Assembly: GCA_030695565.1 (NCBI GenBank) | Contig: JAUYRZ010000087.1 | Location: forward strand, 1-48,402 | Length of the DNA: 48,402 nt | Direction: 5' to 3' | From: Archangium sp. | Lineage (GTDB): Bacteria > Myxococcota > Myxococcia > Myxococcales > Myxococcaceae | Part shown: in pieces, positions 1-7,860 of the stretch | Layout: every line of letters starts with the position of its first letter | Numbering within the stretch: position 1 is the first letter of the stretch | The notes under the pieces: generated by a model | Told to the model about the DNA's origin: nothing | The model's input: only the letters and a program-made list of their open reading frames with translations | Database searches by the model: none | Position numbers and translations under genes: made by a program

Positions 1-506
1 GCTCCGGCGGAGCAGCAAACGCGATAACGTTCGCGATCACATCGACCGACGGACCCGGGTCTCCGGTGATCCCGGTGAAAGTGGATCTCGATCACGTCGG
101 TGGTGACAAGAAGTCCGCCGACAACCGCAGCGAGCGCACCAGCCACCGGACCACCCATCAAGAGGATGGGAATGCCCAACAGCCCCGCGCCGAACAACGT
201 GTTCTCCTTCCGTGCTTCCTCCGCCTGGCGTCGCGAGAGCGGCGCGCGCGTCACTCCGTTGCGAGCCCGTGCAGCGCGAGTCGAGCCGTCACTCTTGTCC
301 CGGTTGCAGTCGATGCACGCCGGATAGAGGTTCGACAGGCGATCACTGCCGCCACGCGACCTCGGAATCGAGTGGTCAACGTGCCAAGCCCCCGACTGAC
401 CCTCCTGCGCGTAGTTCCGGAAGGAGAGCCTGCTGGTGCAGATGTGGCAGTAGCCGGAGGAGCGGTCGAAGATCTGCCGCTTCCGGCTTTCGTCCCAGGC
501 ACCCAT
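1..506 (-). CDS. HNH endonuclease with C-terminal hydrophobic segment (partial, runs off the window)
   Basis: The reading frame is open from the ATG at 506 to base 1 (168 codons) and has no stop, so the C-terminus lies outside the window. Residues about 20-75 form a HNH nuclease with paired zinc-binding cysteines: CHIC, then the metal-binding WHVDHSIPRSRGGSDRLSN core, then CIDCN. This is the classical McrA-like arrangement that cuts DNA with one divalent metal. After a charged linker there is a hydrophobic stretch (about residues 110-135, rich in Gly, Ala, Val and Leu) that looks like a membrane segment, which is odd for a nuclease. The start codon overlaps the stop of the upstream HNH gene (TAATG), so the two are probably translated together. 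The fold call is firm; the target and biological role are unknown. Its position beside DISARM genes suggests defence. Confidence 0.8.
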   Translation of the reverse strand, partial: MGAWDESRKRQIFDRSSGYCHICTSRLSFRNYAQEGQSGAWHVDHSIPRSRGGSDRLSNLYPACIDCNRDKSDGSTRAARARNGVTRAPLSRRQAEEARKENTLFGAGLLGIPILLMGGPVAGALAAVVGGLLVTTDVIEIHFHRDHRRPGSVGRCDRERYRVCCSAG

Positions 507-820
507 TAGAACCTCACCTCGCACGCCCACCTGTCGGGCGGGTTGTCGGACTTCGCCCGGTTGTTCGCCCACTGCAGCGCCTGGAGGTTGCTGAGCACAT
601 CGCTCCCTCCGGCGGCGACGGGCTTGATGTGGTCGATCTCCCAGCCGAACTTCTCGATCCTGCCGTAGTCAACCCAGCGGATCGGGGCGCCACATCCGTC
701 GCGGCGCCATTCAGCGGGCGCGTAGCCCGGAATGATTGCCGCTTTGATCCAGACTGCCGCCCGCGTTTCAAAGTCGAAACCACCACCGCCCGTGTTCGTG
801 TTGCGATTCCTCAGTGCCAT
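506..820 (-). CDS. small HNH endonuclease
   Basis: This is a 104-residue protein. The C-terminal half carries a HNH core: WEIDHIKPVAAGGSD, then LSNLQALQWANNRAKSD, which supplies the His, Asn and Asn/His positions of the beta-beta-alpha-metal fold. It lacks the CxxC zinc pairs of its downstream neighbour, so the two are different HNH subtypes and not a duplication. The frame stays open upstream to 868, but the ATG at 820 is preferred because an AAGGA ribosome binding site sits eight bases before it. It overlaps the next HNH gene by one base. It is divergent from the XRE/ImmA gene and probably shares a control region with it. The function is inferred as DNA nicking or cleavage, for example in restriction of foreign DNA; a homing-type HNH is also possible, although no intron or intein is visible. 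Confidence 0.8.
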   Translation of the reverse strand: MALRNRNTNTGGGGFDFETRAAVWIKAAIIPGYAPAEWRRDGCGAPIRWVDYGRIEKFGWEIDHIKPVAAGGSDVLSNLQALQWANNRAKSDNPPDRWACEVRF

Positions 821-845
821 GTCGTTATTCCTTTCGTGGTTTGGT

Positions 846-905
846 ACATCGCTTCGACTCCGGAGCAATTGGCTACCGGAGTAGACATCGCTTCGTATGT
901 CGATG
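846..905. promoter_or_regulatory. repeat-rich divergent control region, candidate operators
   Basis: The spacer between the divergent HNH and XRE/ImmA genes (821-925) holds an exact 11-base direct repeat, ACATCGCTTCG, at 846-856 and 885-895. Between the copies lies an inverted repeat, ACTCCGG (857-863) and CCGGAGT (876-882). A further inverted pair, CATCG (886-890) and CGATG (901-905), overlaps the second copy. Such nested symmetry in an XRE regulator's own upstream region is typical of autoregulatory operators. The repeats are seen directly; binding by the XRE protein is inferred. Confidence 0.5.
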
Positions 906-925
906 AGAAGTATACATCACCCGGA

Positions 926-2047
926 ATGGGAGGCAAGGTGCCCTCAGAAAACGCCATTGCGTCGAACTGCCGGATGCTCCGCAACGCTCGTGGCCTGAGC
1001 CAAATCGAGATGGCCGAGAAGGTGGGCCTATCGCGCGCGGGCTACTTGAAAATCGAAAGCGGTGAATCGACGCCTCGCTCGGACACGCTCGAGCGGCTCG
1101 CTTCTGCGCTCGGCGTCAAGATTGCCGAGCTGATGAGGGCTCCCGACCAGCTGCAGCACGTGCGCTTCCGGTCGAAGAAGCGCATCAACTCAAGGGAAGA
1201 ATTGCTGGTCGAGGTGAAGAGCCGGCTCGACGCGTACCAGGCGCTCGCGCAGGCACTCGGCGATCAGCGCAGACCCGCCGCAGTCGAGGTTCCCCGGAAA
1301 GACATGGAGAAGGCGGCGCAAGCAGTTCGCCTCGCCCTCAAGCGAACCCCGGATGAACCGATTCACGACATCTGCGGGCTCGTCGAGAGCGCGGGCTATC
1401 GGCTGCTCAAAGTGCGCCTCAGCTCGACGTTTCTCGAAGGAGAAGACGCGACTGACCGCGCGGAGGGCTTCTTTGGTCTCTCCGTGTTCGCTGAGGACGA
1501 TGTTCCCGCCATCGTCGTGAATGACTTCGAACGCATATCGATCGAGCGTCGCATCTTCACGGTCGCCCACGAACTCGGGCACGTGCATCTCCACCGCGAT
1601 TCGTACACGGCAGCCGAGAGCGACGAGAGAGAGAAGGAAGAGCTGGAGGCTGACCTCTTCGCATCACACTTCCTCATGCCTCGGGCCCGCTTCGACAAAG
1701 AGTGGACCGGGGCGTACGGGCTCCCCTTCATCGAGCGTGTCCTCAAGGTGAAGCGCATCTTTCGGGTCAGCTACAAGACCGTGCTTCGGCGCTTGCAGGA
1801 TCAGGGCGACGAGAACCTCTACCCGCGGTTCTTCGGCATGTTCAAGAAGCGCTTCGGACGCAGCCTCACCAAGCGCGAGGAGCCGAGCCCGCTCGATGAA
1901 TCGGACTTCGAGGCCGATCTCCTGCCTTCGATGGTGCGGAAGGGCGTGGAAAGAGAGATTCTCAGCCAGGCACGGGCGGCAGAACTTCTTGGGGTGGAGC
2001 TCAAGCAGTTCAGGGAGCGGGCGTCGGAATGGAACCTCACCGGGTAG
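926..2047 (+). CDS. XRE-family regulator fused to ImmA/IrrE metallopeptidase
   Basis: The 373-residue protein has an N-terminal helix-turn-helix of the XRE/Cro type (about residues 15-70; motif LSQIEMAEKVGLSRAGYLKI). A middle linker follows, then a zinc peptidase of the ImmA/IrrE family with the HELGH site (His215, Glu216, His219) and a downstream EADLFASHFLMP segment that supplies the third metal ligand. Proteins of this kind cleave or release a repressor, often in mobile elements, phage immunity or toxin-antitoxin loci. The frame is open back to base 212, but that stretch is antisense to the HNH genes. ATG 926 is taken as the start; GTG 938 with GGGAGG just upstream is an alternative. The 3' end overlaps the PIN gene by 19 bases, so the two almost certainly form one operon and may form an antitoxin-toxin pair. 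Confidence 0.85.
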   Translation: MGGKVPSENAIASNCRMLRNARGLSQIEMAEKVGLSRAGYLKIESGESTPRSDTLERLASALGVKIAELMRAPDQLQHVRFRSKKRINSREELLVEVKSRLDAYQALAQALGDQRRPAAVEVPRKDMEKAAQAVRLALKRTPDEPIHDICGLVESAGYRLLKVRLSSTFLEGEDATDRAEGFFGLSVFAEDDVPAIVVNDFERISIERRIFTVAHELGHVHLHRDSYTAAESDEREKEELEADLFASHFLMPRARFDKEWTGAYGLPFIERVLKVKRIFRVSYKTVLRRLQDQGDENLYPRFFGMFKKRFGRSLTKREEPSPLDESDFEADLLPSMVRKGVEREILSQARAAELLGVELKQFRERASEWNLTG

Positions 2048-2550
2048 GCGCTCCCCTCTACATCGCTGACGCGAACGTCCTCATCGACTTCCTGAACGCC
2101 GACCTCAAGGTGCTCGGGCTCGTCTCCGAGTTCATCGGTCCGGTGCTGGTGTTGCGCGTCATCCTCCGAGATGAAGTCGATGGTCTGACTCTGGCTGGCT
2201 GTGCGAAGGCTGGCTTGCAGGTCGTCGATTCCAGCGTTGAGACCCTGATCCAGGCGGCCAGGCACGAATCCACGGGGCGCCTGCTGTCCTTCTATGACTG
2301 GCTCGTCTTGCTCGAGGCCAAGGAGCGCGGCGGCGCGTGTCTGACCAACGATGGCGCGCTCATCAAAGCCTGCCGAAGCCACGGAATCGATGCCGTTCGC
2401 GGACTTGCTCCTCTTCTGCAGTTGGTGAGTCTGGGGAAGTTTCGCAAGAAGGAGGCGCTTGAGTTGGTTGAGAAGATGGCCGCCAAGAACTCCTACCTCC
2501 GCAAGGTCGTTCCCGAGTTCGTCAAGAAACTCGGGGCGCTCCCAAAATAG
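2029..2550 (+). CDS. PIN-domain protein, partner of XRE/ImmA
   Basis: This 173-residue protein matches the PIN ribonuclease fold. It starts with the acidic strand YIADANVLIDF, has a central acidic residue in ILRDEVD, and a late ACLTNDGALIKAC segment that resembles the conserved TND active-site loop. PIN enzymes cut RNA using clustered acidic residues and are the toxins of VapBC-type systems. The start lies 19 bases inside the XRE/ImmA gene, with a GGGAG-like site upstream, so translation is probably coupled. Pairing of an XRE-metallopeptidase with a PIN-like protein fits a toxin-antitoxin or abortive-infection module. A Lys-rich C-terminal tail (about residues 130-173) extends past the catalytic core. 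The fold is likely; the toxin role is an inference. Confidence 0.7.
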   Translation: MEPHRVGAPLYIADANVLIDFLNADLKVLGLVSEFIGPVLVLRVILRDEVDGLTLAGCAKAGLQVVDSSVETLIQAARHESTGRLLSFYDWLVLLEAKERGGACLTNDGALIKACRSHGIDAVRGLAPLLQLVSLGKFRKKEALELVEKMAAKNSYLRKVVPEFVKKLGALPK

Positions 2551-2572: not shown

Positions 2573-5213
2573 ATGACGACGTCACTGGAGGCGAGGGGGA
2601 AGTTGGTGGAGGCGCTCTCATTGGACCTGGTGGGTCCGGGACCGGGGCACCTCCACGAGAGTGAGCTCATCGATCAAGCGCCCTCGCGCTGGTACCTCGC
2701 GGGCTTCCTGGTCCCGCGTGAAACCAAGGCTGAAGAGAAGACCGGTTTCGAAGGCGAGGGCGAGGTCGACTCCGCTACCGACGGGGGCGGGGGCGGTGAC
2801 GACGAGAAGACGCCGGAGCGCACCTCGGGACGCAAGGCGATGTTCTCTTCCTCGATGGGCATGTCGGTGCTGGTGCCCGCAGCTGCGAAGACCATCGAGT
2901 TGACCGTGGAGTGGGGCGACTACACGCCCGAGGAAGCGGGGAAGCATGATGGCCCCCAGCGCGCCAACTGGAAGAGGAAGCAGTGCAAGGTCGAGGTCAG
3001 CCTTCCCCTGGTCAAGCGCCGAGCGACCAAAGCGTTGGAGGGCTTCGCCGGGTTGTCCGTCGTGTGGACCGTACGAAAGGTGACCGTCGATGACGGCATC
3101 GCGCTGCCGAAGGGGACCCGGGCCGTCTCGCTCTTCTTCGTGAACGACCGCCAGCCGCAACCCGAGCAGAATCGAGATGAGGCCTACGTGTTTCAAGCGC
3201 AGCTGCACGCCCGCTGCGCAGAGGGCTTCGTTCCCAGGCCCAATTGGCGCGGCCTCACCACCAGCGACGTCGACGAGCGAACTGCCGACCTCCAGTACCG
3301 CGACGCGTATGAGTACGGCGTGGGCCATGGAGTGGCCACCGATGCCGTGGTGGCCGACGACGCGTGCAAGGAAATCCACACGTCCTGGATTCCGTCTGCC
3401 GAGGTGGAGCGCGTGGTGCCCTCCGATGTGAAGGGGGTGGAGCTGCGCATGATCGAGTTGGCGAAGCTCACGTCGGGCGACACCGCCGCCAAGCTGGGTG
3501 CCTTCGTCTCGGAGTGGAAGCTGTGGCTGGCTGAGCAGGCCAAGGTCAACGTCGATCACCCCAAACGCAAAGAGGTGCTCACCGAGCTGCTGGCCCAGGC
3601 GGCGTTCTCACAGAAGCGCCTCGCCGACGGCATCGCACTTTTGTCCCAGCCGAACGTGCTTCGCGCCTTCTGTCTCGCCAACAAGGCGATGGATCTGCAG
3701 GCGCGGCAGAGAAATAGCCTTCGGCCCACGCCCGATCGCAAGGACCCTCAGTGGCGCCCCTTTCAGTTGGCCTTCGTGCTGCTCAACCTGCGCTCCATCG
3801 TCGACCCTGCCCCCGCCTGACCTCATCATTCAAGACGAACTCCACCTCATCTCAGGGCCTCTCGGGACGATGGCTGGGCTGTACGAGTCGGCGATCGAGC
3901 AACTGTGTTGCCGAAAAGTTGGAGAGAAGCTGATCAAGCCCAAGGTGGTCGCATCGACCGCGACGGTGCGACGCGCGGGCACCCAGATTCGGGCTCTCTT
4001 CGCGCGCACTCGGGTGGAGATCTTCCCGCCTCCTGGACCAAACCGGCGCGACTCCTTCTTCGCGAAGACGGTCCCTCCTTCGCCCGAGGATCCGCCGCGC
4101 CTCTACCTGGGAGTGGCCTCTGCAGGTCGGAGCCTCAAGGTCATCCTGCTCCGCACTTATGTGGCGCTGCTGTCGGCCGCGCAGAAGCTCTATCTGGCGA
4201 ACGGCGGCAAACGAGCCGACAACCTGGCCGACCCGTACATGACGCTGCTGGGTTACTTCAACAGCCTCCGCGAATTGGGTGGGGCACGCCGAATCGTCGA
4301 AGACGAGGTGCAGGGAAAGGTCTCCCGGTACGGTGATCGACGCCGTGTCGGCGAAGACGAGAAGGGCACGCCGTTCGCCCGTCGGCAGATTCAGTACGAC
4401 GTCGTCGAGCTGACCAGCCGCGAGTCGAACAGCAACGTGGCCAAGGCCAAGCGTCGGCTCGAACTGACGATGAATGAGAAAGACGCGGTCGACGTGGCGA
4501 TCGCAACGAACATGATCTCCGTCGGCCTCGACATTACCCGGCTGGGCTTGATGGTCGTGCTCGGCCAGCCCAAGACGACGGCCGAATACATTCAGGCCTC
4601 GAGCCGAGTTGGCCGTGACGCCAGAAAGCCCGGGCTGGTGGTGACGCTGCTCAATGTTCATCGCCCTCGTGATCGCTCGCACTACGAGCGCTTCGAGGCG
4701 TACCACCAGTCTTTCTACCGGAGCGTCGAGGCGACGAGCGTGACCCCCTTCTCTGCGCGCGCCATCGATCGCGGCCTGGCTGGCGTGGTGGTCGGGCTGG
4801 CGCGCCATGGCCAGCCGGAACTGACCGCGCCTCGGAGCGCCGTCGAGATGGACAAGCTCGTCAGCAAGACAGCGTGGGTTGCGGCTGCACTCGGCCGCCG
4901 TGCTGCGTTCGTCACGGGCGACGAAACGACCGCAAAGAAGGTGGAAGATCGCGCCAAGTCGCTGCTGGACGACTGGAGCATCATCGCCACGGAGCAGCGC
5001 AAGGTGCAGGCGGGGCTTCAGTATCAGCGAGAGGTCGGCAACGAGCCGCCGCTGCTGCACACGCCCCTCGACCCGGCTCTCGACACCCTGGGTGAACGTC
5101 AGAAGCGCTTCAAGGCAAACCGATCGCTGCGCGACGTCGAGCCTTCGGTGAACCTCTACGTGCGCAGTCTCGTGCACCAGGATGTCGTCGTCGACGATGG
5201 GGAGGTGGAGTGA
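2573..5213 (+). pseudogene. drmA: DISARM helicase DrmA, disrupted: internal deletion plus frame change
   Basis: DrmA is the SF2 helicase of the DISARM anti-phage system and works in a complex with DrmB. The first frame (2573-3820, 415 codons) has the family's N-terminal features, such as SRWYLAGFLVP, SSMGMSVLVP and WRPFQLAFVLLNL, then stops at TGA 3818-3820. The second frame picks up at about 3813 with PPDLIIQDELHLISGPLG, then STATVRR (motif III), NMISVGLDITRLG (motif V) and YIQASSRVGRDARKPG (motif VI), and ends at 5213. In intact DrmA several hundred residues with the Walker A segment (a PTGGGKTEAY-like motif) lie between the LLNL and PPDLIIQDELH landmarks. Here they are absent and the frame changes by +1. 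No GKT/GKS motif occurs in either part, so ATP hydrolysis should be lost. An ATG at 3870 could start a shorter C-terminal product. The family call is strong and the deletion is clear from recalled alignments. Confidence 0.85.
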
Positions 5214-7081
5214 TGGCCGCTCGTCGCCGCGCAAGGCCCCATGGTCAGATCCGTCGAAGTCAGCTGGTAGGGCAGTTCGGGCCCGGCTCACTCATCGACA
5301 TGCCCCGGCACTCCGTCATCGTGGGTGGGCTGGAGCAATGGGGAGATCCCGAGAAGAACGGGTTTCCTCCCGTGTTCGAAGATCGGCTCAAGGCCAACCT
5401 GGAACAGGCACTCGAGCTCCAGGGGTTGCGCTTCTTCTCTCCGCCCATCGACCTCGACACGTTCGGTGACGAGGCGCCCCAGGGCATCACGGTGTGGGAG
5501 TTTCCCCAGTGGTTCGTCGCGCAGTGGGCGCCGACCGACTCGCCTGGCAAGCGGCCGCTGGTGCACGAACGTCGGCTCGTATCTGGCCGCTTTCTCGCGG
5601 ACGACAAGAAGCCGAAGCCCGTGGTACCGATTCGTTTCGTGCAGGCCTGTCGGAATGGTCACGTCAGTGACATTGATTGGCCCACCTTCGCCCATCGAGG
5701 GAACTCAAGTTGTCAGCAGCAACTGTGGTTGCTCGAGAAGGGCACCAGCGGCGACTTCCTCGACCTCTTCATTCAGTGCGACTGCGGGGTACCGATGCGC
5801 TCGGTGTTCGAGGCGACCCGCTTCGGGGAGGACGGCATGTCACCGCTGGGGCTCTGCAAAGGCCATCGGCCCTGGCTGGGCCCCAACAGCCGCGACCCCA
5901 ACCCCTGCCTGAGTGACGGCGGCAAGCACTCGCCCAACAAGCTCCTCGTGCGTACCGCCAGCAACGCCTACTTCGCGCGCGTGGTCAGCGCGATCTCGAT
6001 TCCGGAGAAGGATCGCAAGGTCCGCGAGGCGGTGGAACACCTGTGGACCGACTTCATGGTGCAGTGCGAGAGCCAGGCGGACGTCAAGCATGAGAGGAAG
6101 AAGCCGAAGGTGCAGGCGTCCCTGGGGACCCTCACTGATGCGCAGGTCTTCGCCGAGATTCAGCGCAGGAAGTCCCCCACACCGACGCCAGCGAAGAAGC
6201 TGAAGCAGGCCGAGATCGAGACCCTGCTGTCAGTCGAGGATGAACTGGGCGACGACAAGCTCGGGAGCGACTTCTACGCGACAGTGCTCCCCGCCAAGAA
6301 GCCTCAGTCACGACTCCTCGAGGCATTTCACAAGATCGTGCTGGTTCAGCGCATGCGGGAAGTTCGGGTCCAGGTTGGCTTCACGCGGTTCGAGGACCAG
6401 GCGCCAACCATCGATGGTGAGCTGGATCTCAACGTGGGCATGGCCTCGCTTTCTCGCGAGGCCACATGGCTACCGGCGGTGGAGAACTACGGCGAGGGAC
6501 TCTTTCTCTCCTTCGATCTGAAGAGACTGATCGACTGGAGCAAGCGGCCTGCAGTGCAGACCCGCGAGAAGGAACTGCACGACGGCTTCAAGGCGTGGGT
6601 GGACAGCCAGCGGGGCTCGAAGGAGAAGAAGCAGTCCATCGTGGCGCCGCCGGTCGTCTACGTGATGCTTCACTCGCTCTCTCATCTCCTGATCAACGCG
6701 ATGTCGCTGGAGTGCGGCTATTCAGCGAGCAGCATCCGCGAGCGCATTTACGTGACGAAGGAAGGGGCGGGGATTCTGCTCCACACCGGTACGCCTGATG
6801 CTGAGGGAACGTTGGGTGGCTTGGTCGAGGTCGGCAAGCGGTTCGATGAGATCCTCCGTGTGGCGCTCGAGTTGGGGAAGCTGTGCTCGAACGACCCTGT
6901 CTGTGCCGCGCACCGGCCCAACGACTCAAACGAGGAGCGGCCGCTCCATGGGGCCGCCTGCCATGGTTGCCTGCTCACCTCTGAGTCAAGCTGCGAGCGG
7001 AGAAACGAGCTGCTTGATCGTGCTCTTGTCGTTCCCACCGTCGAGGATTGCGGCTGCGAGTTCTTCACAGAGGCTGAGTGA
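5213..7081 (+). CDS. drmB: DISARM protein DrmB (DUF1998 helicase partner)
   Basis: The protein has 622 residues. The N-terminus, with QLVGQFGPGSLIDMP followed by SVIVGGLEQWGD, matches the DrmB family opening. Several Cys/His clusters (QACRNGHVSDIDW, QCDCGVPM, GLCKGHRPWLG) look like zinc sites. The C-terminal DUF1998 region includes YVMLHSLSHLLINAMSLE, then CGYSASSIRERIYV, and ends with a cysteine cluster (HGAACHGCLLTSESSCERRN). DrmB binds DrmA, and together they recognise and move along phage DNA with a 5' overhang. The ATG at 5213 overlaps the drmA stop; a GTG at 5210 is equally possible. The 3' end overlaps drmC, so the trio is one transcription unit. The reading frame is complete and shows no decay, in contrast to drmA. 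Confidence 0.9.
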   Translation: MAARRRARPHGQIRRSQLVGQFGPGSLIDMPRHSVIVGGLEQWGDPEKNGFPPVFEDRLKANLEQALELQGLRFFSPPIDLDTFGDEAPQGITVWEFPQWFVAQWAPTDSPGKRPLVHERRLVSGRFLADDKKPKPVVPIRFVQACRNGHVSDIDWPTFAHRGNSSCQQQLWLLEKGTSGDFLDLFIQCDCGVPMRSVFEATRFGEDGMSPLGLCKGHRPWLGPNSRDPNPCLSDGGKHSPNKLLVRTASNAYFARVVSAISIPEKDRKVREAVEHLWTDFMVQCESQADVKHERKKPKVQASLGTLTDAQVFAEIQRRKSPTPTPAKKLKQAEIETLLSVEDELGDDKLGSDFYATVLPAKKPQSRLLEAFHKIVLVQRMREVRVQVGFTRFEDQAPTIDGELDLNVGMASLSREATWLPAVENYGEGLFLSFDLKRLIDWSKRPAVQTREKELHDGFKAWVDSQRGSKEKKQSIVAPPVVYVMLHSLSHLLINAMSLECGYSASSIRERIYVTKEGAGILLHTGTPDAEGTLGGLVEVGKRFDEILRVALELGKLCSNDPVCAAHRPNDSNEERPLHGAACHGCLLTSESSCERRNELLDRALVVPTVEDCGCEFFTEAE

Positions 7082-7860
7082 TGCCTGGTCGCTGGTCACC
7101 CACGACGATCGAGGCGCTCTCCCGTGCTTTGCGAACCGGCCGACTGAGCGTGCCGACTTCGACCTTCGGGATTGCGCGCGCAGTGGGCGGTCTGCCCTTC
7201 GACCTCGAAGCGGCCGTATTGCGCTGGGGCGCGGGGGGGATGTCGGCGGCAGTGATGGCCGACGTTCTCGAAACGGTTCAACTGCAATCAGAGCCTGAAG
7301 AAGCGGTCAGTACGGAGTTGGTTTGGACCGGGCCAGAGGCCGCAGACACGGGGACCCGCGATACTTCGGTGGTCGTGCGCGAACTCTTCGGTGCTGCAAC
7401 TCAGCGCGTACTCGTCGCCGGATTCGCATTTGTCGGTGGCCGAGATCTCTTCGAGCCACTCGCGAAGAGAATGGATGAGGCGGCCGAACTCGACGTCACG
7501 TTCTTCGTCAACGTTGCGAGGGAAGGCGCCCACGACCTTCGGGATCCGGCAACGGTGGCGACTGAGTGGGGACGCAATTTTCGCGAGCGCCAATGGCCGG
7601 GGAAGCGGTTCCCGAAAGTGTTTTACGACCCACGCTCGCTCTCGGACGACAAGACCGTTCGGGCTTCGCTGCACGCTAAGACAGTCGTGATTGACGGGTC
7701 CGCCGCCCTCGTTACGAGCGCCAACTTCACGTCCCATGCCCAAACGCGAAACGTAGAACTCGGGCTGCTCGTTCGAGGGTCCGCTTTGCCTGCATTGATT
7801 GAACGGCAGTTTTCGGGACTCGTGACACTCGGTCACGTCAGTCGCTTGGCCGGATGCTGA
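7081..7860 (+). CDS. drmC: DISARM phospholipase D-like nuclease DrmC
   Basis: This 259-residue protein carries one phospholipase D signature near its C-terminus: LHAKTVVIDGSAALVTSANF, giving His, Lys and Asp in the HxKx4D spacing plus the Ser and Asn that follow. An N-terminal helical region (STFGIARAVGGLP and neighbours) matches the DrmC family. PLD-type nucleases with a single motif usually act as dimers. DrmC is a core DISARM gene, but published work found it dispensable for some phages. The ATG overlaps the drmB stop (GTGATG, so GTG 7078 is an alternative start). It ends three bases before the convergent Hsp70-like gene, so no room is left for a normal terminator between them. No MTase gene (drmMI or drmMII) follows. 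Confidence 0.87.
   Translation: MPGRWSPTTIEALSRALRTGRLSVPTSTFGIARAVGGLPFDLEAAVLRWGAGGMSAAVMADVLETVQLQSEPEEAVSTELVWTGPEAADTGTRDTSVVVRELFGAATQRVLVAGFAFVGGRDLFEPLAKRMDEAAELDVTFFVNVAREGAHDLRDPATVATEWGRNFRERQWPGKRFPKVFYDPRSLSDDKTVRASLHAKTVVIDGSAALVTSANFTSHAQTRNVELGLLVRGSALPALIERQFSGLVTLGHVSRLAGC

Follow-up and report, generated by a model that had tools for sequence, protein, structure and literature searches.

A DISARM locus of Archangium sp. whose restriction arm is probably off through a recent out-of-frame deletion in drmA

Introduction

The window analysed here, a stretch of 48,402 nucleotides (contig JAUYRZ010000087.1 of the Archangium sp. assembly GCA_030695565.1), carries genes of the anti-phage defence system DISARM, one of which, drmA, is read in two pieces that lie in different frames. 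The question raised by this locus is whether the break disabled the system in the cell or arose only in the assembly, a draft of 8,515,972 bases in 134 contigs with a contamination estimate of 3.59%. We consider it fairly probable that the locus belongs to class 1 of DISARM and that a recent out-of-frame deletion in drmA has turned its restriction arm off. The window drmA is probably an ordinary loss-of-function allele, a broken member of a well-known defence system.

The broken drmA and its neighbours

The original prediction described two drmA frames fused with a frame change at 3813-3820, and both frames indeed match the DrmA profile. The first (2573..3820, plus strand, 415 aa) opens with the ATG at 2573, ends in ...FVLLNLRSIVDPAPA (also given as ...WRPFQLAFVLLNLRSIVDPAPA) and stops at the TGA at 3818-3820, just past the junction. 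The second (3813..5213, plus strand) reads PPDLIIQDELHLISG (also given as PPDLIIQDELHLISGPLGTMAGLYE) from 3813 and stops at the TGA at 5211-5213, which overlaps the start of drmB. The junction itself, placed at 3803..3821 by codon comparison with 22 homologues and by its own sequence, sits in a C-rich run. Against the NCBIfam profile NF038325 (DISARM_DrmAS, 1165 positions, curated cut-off 950 bits), the N-terminal fragment covers positions 2-454 with 257 bits and the C-terminal fragment positions 727-1165 with 600.8 bits, so that both fall below the cut-off, no single frame reaches the score of a whole protein, and positions 455-726 are absent between them. The PADLOC models label both fragments DrmA. 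The C-terminal fragment, with PPDLIIQDELH at 3813 and a match to Helicase_C (PF00271), retains the DExH box and the helicase C domain; motif I (G-x-G-K-T/S) is found nowhere in the drmA frame of the window.

The rest of the DISARM core in the window adjoins drmA and exceeds the curated cut-offs. An intact drmB (5210..7081, plus strand, with a start at GTG 5210 or ATG 5213 and an MZB domain) matches positions 2-604 of the 604 in NF038324 at 546.6 bits against a cut-off of 240, and it is followed by an intact, phospholipase D-like drmC (7078..7860, plus strand, PLDc_2), which scores 160.8 bits with NF038319 against a cut-off of 133.

Directly upstream of the broken drmA there is a pair of genes (926-2550) for an XRE-ImmA (RmrA-like) protein and a PIN-like protein. 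The former (926..2047, plus strand) joins an XRE helix-turn-helix (PF01381) to an IrrE/ImmA-like Peptidase_M78 domain (PF06114) and is matched by the PADLOC RmrA models (best E 4.1e-30); the latter, an ORF of 173 aa (2029..2550, plus strand), is PIN-like by eye only and has no match at E 0.01 to any family of Pfam, PADLOC or NCBIfam. A BLAST comparison with the long ORFs of 26 DISARM loci gave no match to the pair at E 1e-4; the pair may represent cargo of the toxin-antitoxin type. Two HNH endonuclease-like ORFs (PF01844) lie beyond it on the minus strand, at 506..868 and at 3..572, the latter running off the start of the contig.

The missing block

The extent of the loss can be read from two landmark codons, for the D of VDPA and the P of PDL, whose starts are separated by 13 bases in the window and, in the closest homologue (genome G014, locus L035), by 245 residues (735 bases). 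Relative to this homologue the window gene has lost ~722 bases, out of frame. Among 22 aligned homologues the spacing is 216-276 residues and falls within 245-253 in 20 of them, the outliers being those of loci L042 (216) and L045 (276). The original prediction of a lost block therefore stands, but its size, put at several hundred residues, is rather less, at ~240-250 residues. The lost stretch comprises motif I (PTGGGKT), the remainder of the first RecA domain as far as the DExH box, and a CxxC segment. The corresponding block of G014 holds FFPTGGGKTEAYLG (motif I), with the predicted Walker A sequence PTGGGKTEAY, as well as RYTLRLLT and the CPWCG...C segment. Of the two fragments, the N-terminal one aligns with positions 5-418 of the G014 DrmA frame at 48% identity, and the C-terminal one with the same frame from position 660 at 68%.

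Such a lack of motif I is not a matter of chance, because the motif lies 204-259 residues before the DExH box in all 48 of the other distinct DrmA frames in the fetched loci, to which the reading of motif I was confined (45 frames with a QDExH box and three with QDEFH, distinctness being judged by the 140 residues around the box). A homologue that naturally lacks the Walker A block, sought as possible counter-evidence, did not appear among the DrmA frames examined. A search of the phylum with the DrmA profile covered 195 genomes, 58 of which had a match. At 38 places, including one on contig C85 of the window's own assembly, a single match runs from profile position 1-2 to 1164-1165; at 8 further places two stretches listed with one and the same open-frame length match, the first of them ending at about 681-687; and the DrmA of G049 matches at 289-1164 in a 1242-residue frame. 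Outside this count are G092 (two stretches, divergent), G194:C134 and C376 (contig edges) and 14 weak matches. The window contig (G000:C120) alone skips positions 455-721 with a frame change.

The original prediction proposed a comparison with close relatives. An undeleted close allele was not found in the genome search, which may omit records very near the window's genome; the best relatives in the C-terminal part are 68% (G014) and 65% (L019) identical, and the viral contigs scanned contain no relative of the C-terminal fragment. A short repeat at the edges is suggested by the codon comparison with the 22 homologues, in which the ~6 bases CTGCCC (3807-3812) fit both flanks, as part of VDPA on the left and of LPPPDL on the right. 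Since no undeleted allele closer than 68% (C-terminal part) was found, we infer the deletion edges and the short direct repeat by homology, and a short-homology deletion through CTGCCC is a plausible origin.

Frame breaks are also present in other draft DISARM loci. The drmA of L033 (L033 5313-8698) is in two frames, split further downstream and with motif I kept, and the drmB of L024 (L024 9501-11391) is in two reading frames.

Outside the junction neither window fragment shows visible decay. Comparison of 16 near-clade homologues gives 35 invariant columns in the N-terminal part and 130 in the C-terminal part, of which the window keeps 33 and 129; the other members, left out in turn, match fractions of 0.58-1.00 and 0.95-1.00 of these columns, respectively. 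The break is therefore either a recent deletion or an artefact of assembly. The third-position G+C is 0.84 and 0.79 in the N- and C-terminal fragments, 0.80 in drmB and 0.69 in drmC.

A probable upstream half on contig C47

Neither DrmMI nor DrmD was recognized in the part of the window read, among its ORFs or with the Pfam, PADLOC and NCBIfam models. A search for DrmMI found it twice in the window's assembly, once on C85 and once at C47:426-4301 (minus strand), where the 3' side of drmMI faces the end of the contig and drmD adjoins. Both C47 genes are free of stops and match nearly the whole of their models. The C47 DrmMI is 62% and 57% identical to an N-terminal and a C-terminal piece of the G014 DrmMI, respectively, as against 47% over the full length for its next best relative (L021) and ~52% for C-terminal pieces. 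The C47 DrmD is 58% identical to the C-terminal piece of the G014 DrmD, 53.5% identical to that of L032 over its length, and 66% identical to a 231-residue N-terminal piece from L021, a part that is not available for G014. In the window, DrmA and DrmB score best with G014; for DrmC, L024 and L025 outscore G014. Because the C47 DrmMI and DrmD and the window DrmA and DrmB are all near G014, the drmD-drmMI genes of C47 are probably the upstream half of the window locus. If this adjacency holds, the locus would be a class 1 DISARM in which drmA alone is broken, and the original prediction of intact partners would extend from drmB and drmC, full length and above their cut-offs, to a drmD and a drmMI that are likewise open and full length.

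A DISARM without a methyltransferase had been entertained for the window and for G014, as neither has drmMI adjacent to drmA. The DrmMI at the end of C47 and the one at the start of G014:C176 led to the rejection of this idea. The ends of C47 and C120 have no common word of at least 15 bases in the first 3 kb of each. Near its start the window carries a repeat of 54 bases (55-108) that is identical to C41:88-141 and C33:64722-64775. This repeat is perhaps what split the operon between contigs, and C41 and C33 are possible neighbours of the window contig in place of C47.

A second DISARM in the same assembly

The DrmA profile finds three places in the window's own assembly, namely the two window fragments and a complete drmA on C85 (a 1128-residue frame, 1090.7 bits). 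Searched with the G014 block, the assembly yields the C85 gene, an 18-residue edge of the C-terminal window frame (E 0.06) and one insignificant match. By both searches the missing block is on no contig of the assembly except in the C85 drmA. In the C85 DISARM the frames of drmMI, drmA, drmB and drmC are open; of its drmD only a part was seen. Its DrmMI groups with another lineage (65.5% identical to L039 and 68.6% to L041).

Genes between drmMI and drmA

A gap of 0.98-6.3 kb between drmMI and drmA occurs in seven of the 34 distinct places (37 rows with 3 duplicates) that have both genes on one strand, a biased count in that many loci had a flank of 1.5 kb only, in which longer inserts are invisible. 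The seven are L028, L033, L034, L035, L037, L039 and L040. The gap of L040 holds an IetA/IetS-like AAA and subtilase pair as well as a PDC-M02B candidate, that of L033 GmrSD-like, Macro and DarT genes, that of L028 a HEC-01A/AriA-like AAA gene, and that of L035 Schlafen-AlbA and ParA-like genes. A DarG-like Macro gene occupies the gap of the C85 locus (L034, L001, L080). The gap of L037 gave no match and that of L039 only a weak TPR match. Several of these inserts resemble other defence systems, and the gap has the look of a slot that takes up nested defence genes as cargo. An AAA and subtilase pair, the second gene IetS-like, also lies immediately upstream of drmA in a bin of Vicinamibacteria (L027 4594-7925), in which no DrmMI was recognized at E 1e-30.

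The window locus might be a demoted DISARM, in which a deletion silenced the restriction helicase while the methyltransferase, DrmB, DrmC and the inserted genes were kept, so that the locus would no longer restrict and would instead carry nested defence cargo and, as a remnant, methylate the chromosome. The inserted genes would be the HNH genes and the XRE-ImmA and PIN-like pair, placed between drmMI and drmA. We regard this reading as improbable.

Origin and consequences of the break

The preferred explanation is that motif I and most of the first RecA domain were lost in a recent out-of-frame deletion of ~720 bases, which ~6 bases of short homology may have mediated. The two remaining pieces of DrmA would be unable to form an ATPase, DrmAB could not then act on phage DNA, and restriction by the window copy would be off while the reading frames of DrmMI, DrmD, DrmB and DrmC are still intact. 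The class 1 DISARM on C85, with its intact drmA, could cover the loss. A study of the Serratia DISARM (PMC9142583) reports ADP between the two RecA domains, reduced protection when four ADP-contacting residues of DrmA were mutated, and ATP hydrolysis as essential for DISARM. In the related ARMADA systems, mutations of Walker A or B in a YprA-like helicase abolished protection, according to a preprint (PMC12458937). Because motif I is gone, neither window fragment would be expected to bind ATP normally, and restriction by the window copy is most likely off, in agreement with the inactive helicase that had been proposed.

We think it somewhat unlikely that the cell has an intact gene instead, the assembler or a gap closer having joined its flanks at the C-rich stretch, or a variant of a minority strain having been picked in a metagenome bin. 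The draft state of the assembly and its contamination estimate would fit such an origin, as would the contig break within the probable DISARM operon, the C-rich run at the junction and the conservation of both fragments as in intact genes. Assemblers, however, usually need an overlap well above ~6 bases, and the edges estimated from homologues share only about that many. The lack of the block on any other contig save in the C85 gene also speaks against an artefact, more weakly, since an orphan of only ~0.7 kb might have been discarded for its length. On this balance the deletion is probably real in the cell.

Two further readings also seem unlikely. The two fragments might work as separate proteins, or be joined by a ribosomal frameshift, in a function that needs no ATPase, such as binding DNA with DrmB; both have open frames in which nearly all invariant positions are conserved, and the C-terminal frame has an internal ATG at 3870. 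Yet motif I would be absent from any product, a start at 3870 would drop the DExH box as well, such a form is seen in no other DrmA examined, and ATP hydrolysis is reported as essential in DISARM (PMC9142583), so that we hold this to be very improbable. It is scarcely credible that the block is a mobile or invertible segment, excised and restored as a genetic switch. The clean junction would suit such a switch, and nothing more does, whereas the assembly has no copy elsewhere save in the C85 gene, the block in relatives is an ordinary helicase core, and the edges appear to share only ~6 bases.

Under the preferred reading of a recent deletion, the window would offer a natural near-null allele of drmA beside partner genes that were retained, and one could ask of it whether methylation without restriction is a stable state for a DISARM, and whether selection is relaxed where a second copy is present. 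The literature searches on DISARM returned no description of a drmA deletion in titles or the starts of abstracts. There is also a practical side, in that profile annotation calls both fragments DrmA, so that the genome might be credited with two DISARM systems, one of which is probably non-restricting.

Comparison with known DISARM systems

The C85 DISARM belongs to the same family as that of the window, from which it differs in its complete drmA and in the genes between drmMI and drmA; the C-terminal parts of the two DrmA proteins are 49% identical. Against the DrmA of the Serratia DISARM (PDB 7s9v/7s9w), the N-terminal window fragment matches residues 147-587 of 7s9v and the C-terminal fragment residues 859-1259. 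Residues 588-858, which carry PTGGGKTEAY, are missing from the window DrmA, their placement being by way of the G014 alignment. With class 1 DISARM (drmD, drmMI, drmA, drmB, drmC), which we take to be defined by a DrmMI methyltransferase and a DrmD helicase in the locus, the window shares the order drmA-drmB-drmC, and the drmD-drmMI genes of C47 are close to those of G014. The window differs from this class in its drmA, which is in two frames and has lost ~240 residues, motif I among them.
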